Below are positions 28,012 through 30,701 of a stretch of DNA of 64,000 nucleotides, piece by piece. The stretch spans positions 1 to 64,000 of the forward strand of contig CADCWO010000002.1 in NCBI GenBank assembly GCA_902806435.1. Reading direction: 5' to 3'. Below the pieces are notes generated by a model that saw nothing but the letters and a program-made list of their open reading frames with translations, was not told the DNA's origin and made no database searches. How positions within the stretch are numbered: the stretch's first letter is position 1; the number at the start of each line of letters is the position of its first letter. The translations under genes were made by a program, and so were the position numbers. Source of the DNA: an uncultured Synechococcales cyanobacterium (lineage in GTDB: Bacteria > Cyanobacteriota > Cyanobacteriia > Thermosynechococcales > Thermosynechococcaceae).

Positions 28012-28440
28012 ATGTGTGGAGGATTTACCCTCCGGCACTCAGCGGAAACGATAGCCGAAATATCCCAGCTTAATTAGGTTTTAACTCTATAACCCCGGTA
28101 CAACAGCGCCCCATCAGCTCAAGTGGCGGCAGTACTGGTCAGTAAGGACAGCAAGCATCAGCTTAGACTGTTGCACTGGGGCTTAATTCAGGTCTAGGGA
28201 AAGACCCTAAAACTGCGGTAAAAGTGATCAATGCCAGAGCAGAGACAGTCACCGAAAACTCTTCGTTTTGGGCTGCTTTTAAGTATCAGCGCTCTCTAGT
28301 ACTAGCGGATGGCTTTTACGAATGGCCGGTCGCACCTTAGGTGCGACATGAATGGCCCTTTTAGGGAAGGAGGCAGCCCTACCATATCCGAGAATGCAGA
28401 ATGAAAAACACTTGCCTTTGTAAGACTTTGGGAGCATTAG
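28012..28440 (+). pseudogene. Decayed SRAP (YedK/HMCES-type) gene
   Basis: Translated fragments in several frames spell an SRAP protein in the correct order. MCGGFTLRHSAETIAE starts at 28012 (catalytic Cys2 kept). In the same frame, after TAG at 28075 and TAA at 28090, come PRYNSAPSAQVAAVLVSKDS and LRLLHWGLI. After a frameshift near 28195 come GKDP, INARAETVTENSSFWAAFKY and LVLADGFYEW. Finally QPYHI, RMQNEK, LAFVRLWEH and a stop codon where Trp is expected, then QGPDGQ. Intact SRAP proteins trap abasic sites in single-stranded DNA as protein crosslinks. The copy has at least three stops, two or more frameshifts and a 30-nt insertion. The end is approximate; it abuts the 3' end of the convergent secretin gene. 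Confidence 0.88.
28320..28357. repeat. Palindromic 30-nt insertion flanked by 8-bp direct repeat
   Basis: GAATGGCC occurs at 28320-28327 and again at 28350-28357, enclosing a perfect hairpin GTCGCACC-TTA-GGTGCGAC (28329-28347). It interrupts the SRAP pseudogene exactly after DGFYEW. Removing one 30-nt unit restores the expected spacing to the next SRAP block. Confidence 0.8.
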
Positions 28441-28508
28441 CAAGGGCCTGATGGCCAAGATGACTTCTACGGGTTCGCAGAGATCCGAATAGAAGTTTAG
28501 CCAGAGCT

Positions 28509-30701
28509 TTAAGGTTTGAGTAACTTCTGCATCTCAGGGCTCGGCATATAACGATAACCATACGGGGTATTTTTGAGGCCTGAATCAGAGTCGTCTAAGA
28601 GCTGGGGCGTGACAAGGATGACCACCTCTCGTCGTTCGCTGGTCTTATCGACGCGCCGGAAGAGCCGCCCAAGCAATGGAATATCCCCAAGTATCGGTAT
28701 TTTTGCGACATTCAGGCGGTCTTGGTCTTGAATAATCCCGGTCAGAATCAGTGTTTGTCTATCTCGCAAGCGAACTCGGCCAGTTTCGAGGCGACGCTGG
28801 AGTAATAACCGGGCTTGAGACCCTTGGTCCTCAAATACCTCACCGGAAGGAGCACTAACCTCCGGCGAGATGTTCAGCGTCACAAATCCATTGTCATCAA
28901 TCTGGTCAACAGTGACATTAACAATCACCCCAGCAGGCTTGATGATCGGCTTCCGGGCACCTAAGACTAGATCACCATTGACATCCCGCGTTGAGGGTGC
29001 AACTTCAAAACCTGAGAAGATCTCCCGGGTCAAGTTCACCTGAGCGGAACTGCCCTCTTGCACAATCAAAGTAGGGTTGGTGAGGATCTTCGCAGATTGG
29101 TTCTGTACGGCCGCAAACAGGGTGGCAAGGAAGTTTTGTGCGATCGCACCAACGGCACCTACTCCAGTGGCGGCAGCAGCAGCGCCAGTAGCAGTTCTGC
29201 CGATGATCGTGGAAAGACCAACTCGGTTGACATTGTTCGGGTCTGGGCCAAATCGCAGTCCAATTGTGTCATTAACTCGATATTGAAGATCAGCGTTAGC
29301 ATTCTGACCTTGGATCAAATCCACATCCACAATTTTGACATTGACGGCTACCTGCCGCTGGCGAACATCTAACTGCATAAGCTGGAGTGTAGCAATCTCA
29401 ACCAACCGGGGAGGACCAAGCAGGGTCAGCGAATTACTTCTGGCATCAGCAACGACCTCTAAGCCTTGCAAAAGGTTAGAGCTTGCTTTCTGGGTTTGGC
29501 CTTGAACCTGTTGGCCGAGCACTTGACTTTCCGTGATGGTTTGACGTTCACTCTGAGATTGGTTTTCACTCAGAGCTTGGCTTTCTGATGAAGATGTTTG
29601 CAAGCTGGCGGTTGTACCAGTATTAGTTCCACCTCTGTTGGCTCCAAAGGCTTCTAGGAACTCCTTCCCACCTCGATACCTAACGTTTTCAGTCGTAATT
29701 GTGTTTCGTCTTAGGGAAGTTGAGGCTGTGGAGCTACTGGATTTATTAAAGGAATCATCAGAGGTGCCATTGCCACTCACCGTACCCCCGGTTTCGGCTA
29801 GGCTGGATAAACGCCGAATGAGAACAGCCTCCAGTGTCGCCTCAATTTGGTTAAGCCGCAGGGTACGCATCAGTCGGGTGTTTGGTGCTTCTGGTGGGGA
29901 AACATCAATATTAGAAAGGACAATATCCCCCACTGGGGGGGCAACTGCCCTTGGCAGCAGAGGGGCAGTAGAGGCGGCAGGCGTTTTAGGAGGTGCCGCA
30001 GTCGATGGGGTGATTAATAGTGGGCCTAAATTAGTAAAAGATGCGGGAGCACTTGACCTGGGTGGAATCGGGTTAGCTGAAGCAGAACTCGAGGTAGTAC
30101 GAGTTGATGGCCCAGACCCTTGAGTACGCAAAGTCGGCATTAGCGTTGCTGGAGGAGGCGTTAAAGCAGCAGGAACTGGTAGGGTACGTGGAGTGATTGA
30201 AGCGCGGGCTGAAGTGGTTGGCGTTGCTTGAGGTGAAGTAGAAGCTTCTTGGGCCGTAATTTTGGGAGTAGGAGTAGGTGCTGGTGTATTACTGGAATTT
30301 GGGTTGAAACTAAGGGTAATAGCCTCAGCATCTTGCCGGACAATAGTGCTTACGGGTGGCCTGTCAGCCCCAGTAACAACGAGTTGGATACTGTTAGTGC
30401 TTGGCTGATTGACTTGGACGGAGGCAATAGCAAAAGCAGGATTGTTTCGCCAGAAACTCTTGCCTTGAGGTAGGTGAAGCTGCGTATCGCTGATATTGAC
30501 TAGCAAGGTGTTGCTAAGTTCAGCAGTGGCAATAGTAGGACGACTACTGCCTTGAATGTTTAAAGTCAGCTCAATGCCACCACTAGAAGTGGAGTTGAGC
30601 CGGATTGCTGTTACGACGGTTGCAGCGGCCCAGACAGTAGGAGCTGTAAGCAGCAAAATAGTTGCGCCTATTGCTATGCTGCTTGCTTGATGCAGCCTCA
30701 T
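28509..30701 (-). CDS. pilQ: Secretin of type IV pilus/type II secretion type (PilQ-like) with AMIN domain
   Basis: 730 residues with a signal peptide (to about residue 25). An AMIN domain follows (about 28-130), then a long Pro/Thr/Ser-rich linker, an N-domain region (about 265-450), and the secretin ring domain (about 480-710; VNLTREIFSGFEVAPST, ARLLLQRRLETGRVRLRDRQTLILTG, VAKIPILGDIPLLGRLF). This forms the outer-membrane pore for pili. In many cyanobacteria pilQ follows pilMNO; here no pilM, pilN or pilO is adjacent. It may be the main PilQ relocated or a second secretin. ATG at 30699-30701. Confidence 0.85.
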   Translation of the reverse strand: MRLHQASSIAIGATILLLTAPTVWAAATVVTAIRLNSTSSGGIELTLNIQGSSRPTIATAELSNTLLVNISDTQLHLPQGKSFWRNNPAFAIASVQVNQPSTNSIQLVVTGADRPPVSTIVRQDAEAITLSFNPNSSNTPAPTPTPKITAQEASTSPQATPTTSARASITPRTLPVPAALTPPPATLMPTLRTQGSGPSTRTTSSSASANPIPPRSSAPASFTNLGPLLITPSTAAPPKTPAASTAPLLPRAVAPPVGDIVLSNIDVSPPEAPNTRLMRTLRLNQIEATLEAVLIRRLSSLAETGGTVSGNGTSDDSFNKSSSSTASTSLRRNTITTENVRYRGGKEFLEAFGANRGGTNTGTTASLQTSSSESQALSENQSQSERQTITESQVLGQQVQGQTQKASSNLLQGLEVVADARSNSLTLLGPPRLVEIATLQLMQLDVRQRQVAVNVKIVDVDLIQGQNANADLQYRVNDTIGLRFGPDPNNVNRVGLSTIIGRTATGAAAAATGVGAVGAIAQNFLATLFAAVQNQSAKILTNPTLIVQEGSSAQVNLTREIFSGFEVAPSTRDVNGDLVLGARKPIIKPAGVIVNVTVDQIDDNGFVTLNISPEVSAPSGEVFEDQGSQARLLLQRRLETGRVRLRDRQTLILTGIIQDQDRLNVAKIPILGDIPLLGRLFRRVDKTSERREVVILVTPQLLDDSDSGLKNTPYGYRYMPSPEMQKLLKP

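Follow-up and report, generated by a model that had tools for sequence, protein, structure and literature searches.

A probable 23-nt mobile hairpin, resembling a small dispersed repeat, inside a decayed SRAP gene of an uncultured cyanobacterium

Introduction

The small dispersed repeats (SDRs) of cyanobacteria are said to be 21-27 nt long, hairpin-forming, dispersed and mobile on recent time scales, and they reportedly lie within other repeats or mobile elements, are nested, and are confined to a cyanobacterial group. Movement of SDRs via an RNA intermediate is said to have been proposed. Their description, reportedly as eight families from Nostoc punctiforme and its relatives, is credited to Elhai et al. 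2008 (Genome Res 18:1484). A general question is how gene-less repeats of ~20-30 nt spread. In the passage of PMC4390886 that cites Elhai 2008, SDR5 is reported to lie between HIP1 nucleotides 3 and 4. REP elements are defined by GTAG or GTGG located 0-2 nt from the hairpin foot (PMC6006769, PMC3733652).

Here we describe a 23-nt hairpin that is like the SDRs in size, folding, dispersal, apparent recent mobility, nesting and restriction to a cyanobacterial group, and that stands apart from them as one hairpin with a tail and by its position-specific recurrence in IS6 transposase genes. The family appears to be new within the known SDR class, with which it is compared by description only. With the REP/REPIN elements moved by RAYT it shares a short hairpin with a 5' tail, dispersal and a non-autonomous nature, but it has no associated Y1 gene, occurs mostly as single copies and is often intragenic. 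As far as sequence comparison goes, its copies show precise gain or loss of 23 nt, no duplication, a target preference, nesting, and hitchhiking in transposase genes. We put at about 0.8 the probability that the feature studied here is one copy of a non-autonomous mobile hairpin of 23 nt, a lineage-restricted small dispersed repeat.

Results and discussion

The window, i.e. the whole stretch of 64 kb that was analysed, reads GAATGGCC-G-GTCGCACC-TTA-GGTGCGAC-AT-GAATGGCC at 28320-28357. Just as the initial annotation had described, a hairpin with an 8-bp stem, no mispairs and a TTA loop lies between two copies of GAATGGCC set in a 30-nt register. The hairpin pattern was found once in the window, as an exact match (0.12 expected at ≤3 mismatches, from shuffles), and the folding energy of the 38-mer was -19.5 kcal/mol (z -4.3). 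The focal stem has one G-C pair more than the family's usual TCGCACC..GGTGCGA. The features of the locus are as follows.

28012..28560, plus strand: decayed SRAP (SOS-response-associated peptidase) pseudogene carrying the insertion, 3' end approximate (PF02586 matches, translations)
28320..28327, plus strand: left GAATGGCC, of which GAATGG is native SRAP coding sequence, E-W of DGFYEW (sequence, SRAP alignment)
28328..28357, no strand: 30-nt stretch (23-nt unit + GGT + GGCC) whose removal restores the SRAP frame; boundaries presumed (sequence, SRAP translations)
28329..28347, no strand: palindrome GTCGCACC-TTA-GGTGCGAC (sequence, family search, folding)
28331..28353, minus strand: putative 23-nt mobile hairpin unit, ATTCATG-TCGCACC-TAA-GGTGCG on the minus strand (filled/empty pairs elsewhere in the genome, alignment of all copies)
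28350..28357, plus strand: right GAATGGCC, in which GAAT closes the 23-nt unit and GGCC is flank (copy alignment)

The SRAP pseudogene lies between a MobA-like gene on one side and a secretin gene on the other. It matches PF02586 at 28012-28206 and 28089-28397, the residues ahead of the insertion match SRAP with E 1.9e-11, and the insertion lies after DGFYEW. Removal of the 30-nt stretch had been expected to restore the spacing; the frame is restored, but the spacing comes out one codon short, with 18 nt between TGG and CAGCCC versus 21 nt in the intact paralog and most relatives. Several frameshifts and stops are found beyond the insertion, and an intact SRAP paralog is present on another contig of the same genome; with these lesions and this paralog, the hairpin need not have killed the gene. 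Across 29 family genomes, a search for an orthologous SRAP gene at this locus found nothing beyond the own-genome paralog and a short match elsewhere, and the boundaries of the focal insertion are therefore not exactly fixable. None of the intact SRAP genes alignable at DGFYEW, whether the own-genome paralog or those of relatives, has the insertion.

When the genome (4.79 Mb, 278 contigs) was searched, the 19-nt hairpin was found at 17 places at ≤3 mismatches, with 0-1 in the reversed control, and a search with the 23-mer gave 21 matches (control, 0). The proposal of a tiny mobile repeat, dispersed like the cyanobacterial SDRs, is thus supported, and neither of the two outcomes named in advance as speaking against it, a hairpin unique in the genome or one shared with intact SRAP genes, occurred. 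The copies were aligned in one orientation, that of the minus strand of the focal copy. Their common core is RTTCATGTCGCACCTNAGGTGCG, nearly always followed by A; the hairpin takes up one end of this unit, and the terminal GAAT (or GAAC) is kept in nearly all other copies, including those in IS6 and IS481. Like SDRs, the copies are nested in other repeats and mobile elements, here a 24-nt HIP1 repeat, IS6 and IS481. The focal 38-mer had no match in plasmid and phage records, and no Rfam 15 covariance model matched the four loci searched. One copy (L002, 1491-1529) is a 39-nt palindrome, GGCCATTCATGTCGCACCTTAGGTGCGACATGAATGGCC, which looks as if template switching had lengthened the hairpin arms.

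Comparison of filled and empty sites shows the presumed mobile unit to be 23 nt, RTTCATGTCGCACCTNAGGTGCG, on the minus strand of the focal copy. This length, within the SDR range of about 21-27 nt, was obtained in three filled/empty comparisons and from the reading frame of an IS481-family gene, and the unit is precisely present or absent at otherwise like sites. In IS6, the empty site reads CAAATTTTTGGAGTGGC in L082 and L079, and the near-identical filled L008 reads CAGATTTTT[CGCACCTCAGGTGCGACATGAAT]GGGGTGGC, the difference being one 23-nt insert. Five copies share the composite context GCGATGGTCNNNGACCGGCC[23]AAAGGCCATCGC. A host palindrome without its GGCCNNNGGCC half, sought with the pattern GCGATGGTCN{2,12}GACCATCGC, gave 0 copies, and the prediction was therefore corrected to GCGATGGTCNNNGACCGGCCNNNGGCCATCGC; this empty host form, predicted beforehand, was then found at 13 places (7 exact and 6 at ≤3 mismatches; control, 0). 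Contigs 79 (L003) and 83 (L096) carry paralogous intergenic loci with 84% identity over 2 kb and almost the same sequence next to two such sites, each of which differs between the loci by exactly 23 nt. The IS481-family gene (L007) returns to its expected length when exactly 23 nt are skipped: the read-through EIETKHPGYLGAQDT is as long as EIETEHPGYLLSQDT of a Neochlamydia IS481 transposase, and L007 without the 23 nt reads EIETKHPGYLGAQDTFYVGTLKG, which matches EIETEHPGYLLSQDTYYVGTIKG of that transposase in length.

L003 carries two near-identical composite (24+23 nt) copies at 1475-1530 and 1647-1702, 172 nt apart, and the empty sites of L096 that are paralogous to them differ from each other. 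This pair suggests that the composite moved or was converted locally.

The same comparisons show that the putative 23-nt unit enters as a precise insertion without target duplication. Aside from the GGCC of the host palindrome, the flanking repeats are 3-5 nt long, the length expected by chance. Pre-insertion sites read TCC|AAAAAT and CCC|AAAAAT in IS6, ACC|AAACAT in IS481 and GGCC|AAAGG in the host palindrome, and CC|AAA is found at nearly all insertion sites. Within the host repeat, CC|AAA was present in 5/5 filled versus 2/13 empty sites (Fisher p 0.0025, the paired L003 copies not being independent); this non-independence and the loop changes in the L003 paralogs weaken the preference there, and the insert may itself contribute part of the AAA. 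At the focal site the sequence is CC|ACC rather than CC|AAA (..GGGCC|ACCGGCCATTCG), so that only CC|A is kept.

The carrier of about half of the hairpin copies is the IS6 family (DDE_Tnp_IS240), whose transposase genes (NF033587 and PF13610) gave 62 matches in the genome. The hairpin lies in the 3' ends of these elements at a single position in the transposase C-terminus, where ..IF|GVVA (IFGV.A) is changed to ..IFRTSGAT and a stop, and is an addition to some IS6 copies and no part of the IS6 family itself. In a tree of the IS6 3' regions, built with the 23-nt insert left out, copies filled at this same position were found in several lineages of both main clades, and the filled L008 was sister to the empty L082 (support 95/93) in an otherwise empty clade. 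A single clade of filled copies was rejected (p-AU 3.7e-59), a value that is only indicative because four long-branch rows were left out of the test after the first tree had been seen. The recurrence would reflect either repeated insertion at the same base pair or recombination that moves the hairpin alone; recombination between IS6 copies could account for it. At one IS6 3' end (L091), ATTTTCGAAGTGG is found where other IS6 copies have ATTTTTGGAGTGG, a variant that the 23-nt unit could have left behind when it was lost.

The host palindrome is 32 nt long, GCG[ATGGTCNNNGACCGGCCNNNGGCC]ATCGC, and consists of a 24-nt repeat, ATGGTCNNNGACCGGCCNNNGGCC, within HIP1 (GCGATCGC), which is split between its third and fourth bases (GCG|ATCGC). 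With a pattern that lacked the HIP1 letters, the 24-nt repeat was detected in 56/390 cyanobacterial class genomes (control, 0), and both HIP1 halves, GCG before and CGC after, were found at 21/30 loci in other genomes even though the pattern did not require them. The repeat also occurs on Acaryochloris plasmids. In an aldo/keto reductase it forms an in-frame insert of 8 residues at A|IA that is missing in related proteins. It lies in frame within coding regions, adding 8 residues, at L096, L098-L101 and L103, and its coding hosts include, besides the aldo/keto reductase, a thermonuclease-like gene and an AMP-binding (NRPS-like) gene. The 24-nt repeat thus has the same position between HIP1 nucleotides 3 and 4 as SDR5 and is likewise often in frame in genes, a likeness that concerns position and size only, as given in the relevant passage of PMC4390886; unlike SDR5, it is here also a landing site for the 23-nt hairpin.

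The 23-nt hairpin, judged by these searches, appears to be lineage-restricted and narrow in distribution. Of the 390 class genomes, this one and a single member of the same family contain it; the others searched, among them those of the family richest in the 24-nt host repeat (f13), gave no match apart from L049-L051, three hits at 3 mismatches that lack the family context and were set aside as chance. Among GTDB contigs elsewhere, only an uncultured Coleofasciculus MAG contained it. The copies of the Coleofasciculus MAG and of the family relative likewise lie in IS6 3' ends.

The initial annotation had taken the 8-bp GAATGGCC repeat for a target duplication, as if a 22-nt hairpin element had transposed into SRAP, and had proposed a whole-genome search for further copies so flanked. 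The focal copy alone looks exactly like such an event, and removing 30 nt keeps the frame. This reading is nevertheless very improbable. GAAT or GAAC ends nearly all other copies, and in IS6 and IS481 it is missing from the left flank; the focal copy is the only one in the genome flanked by an 8-bp repeat, and the insertions in IS6, IS481 and the 32-nt palindrome show none. The GGCC repeats around other copies derive from GGCCNNNGGCC of the host palindrome, and a GGCC flank is found in all copies that lie within this palindrome or resemble remnants of it. Since the element itself ends in the conserved GAAT, the GAATGGCC repeat is not a target-site duplication, a candidate that the family alignment rejected; from the copy alignment, the right repeat is read as GAAT, the unit's end, plus GGCC, the usual flank, beside the native SRAP GAATGGCC. 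The unit, GGT and GGCC of 28328..28357 were probably captured together. Likewise, a MITE would have terminal inverted repeats and a target-site duplication, and the defined insertions contain no duplication. A chance palindrome combined with an unrelated 30-nt tandem slip, which a dead gene would tolerate, is hardly credible, the same 23 nt with defined boundaries being present at about 20 unrelated places.

It is rather unlikely that the hairpin is itself immobile, having entered IS6 once, with IS6 transposition, recombination and gene conversion accounting for the rest. IS6 3' ends do hold about half of the copies, as in Coleofasciculus and the family relative, and the duplicated composite at L003 suggests local conversion; however, the copies in the HIP1 palindrome, IS481 and SRAP share with IS6 only the 23 nt plus CC and A residues, and conversion would need to transfer 23 nt alone between diverged subfamilies, as for L008 in its otherwise empty clade. 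We regard as quite unlikely a REP-type palindrome moved by the genome's own Y1 (RAYT) transposase. The tail-plus-hairpin anatomy and the duplication-free insertion resemble IS200/IS605 and REP elements, and the genome has 11 Y1_Tnp places, but none of these has a hairpin copy beside it, and the hairpin foot, CATG on one strand and variable on the other, carries no GTAG/GTGG tag.

If the focal feature is one copy of a 23-nt mobile hairpin, copies may in part have been carried along by IS6 elements and by the composite 24+23-nt repeat, and in part have moved by themselves via a folded single-stranded (RNA or DNA) intermediate, with enzymes that would be borrowed from the cell or another element. 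In the likeliest history, a composite copy would have donated the SRAP hairpin and its GGCC flank by microhomology (ATGGCC / GAATGGCC) to a gene that was presumably decaying or already dead at capture. A bolder reading, which we offer tentatively and with the odds somewhat against it, is that the hairpin actively homes to CC|AAA without target duplication, repeatedly invades the same IS6 C-terminal position, rides on IS6 elements, and forms a mobile composite by landing in the SDR5-like repeat that HIP1 carries. If true, few known mobile DNAs with a site preference would be as small.

One genome thus gives the unit boundaries, the target preference, the empty sites and the vehicles of the 23-nt hairpin, and because all of these are readable, the moving machinery is testable with a defined 23-mer and target. 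The locus also calls for caution, since flanking direct repeats at a single copy may be mistaken for a target duplication.

As a separate observation, an apparent coding region (a putative HAMP-like array) contains, at positions 1-552 of the window, a tandem pair of 276-bp units with 95% identity.
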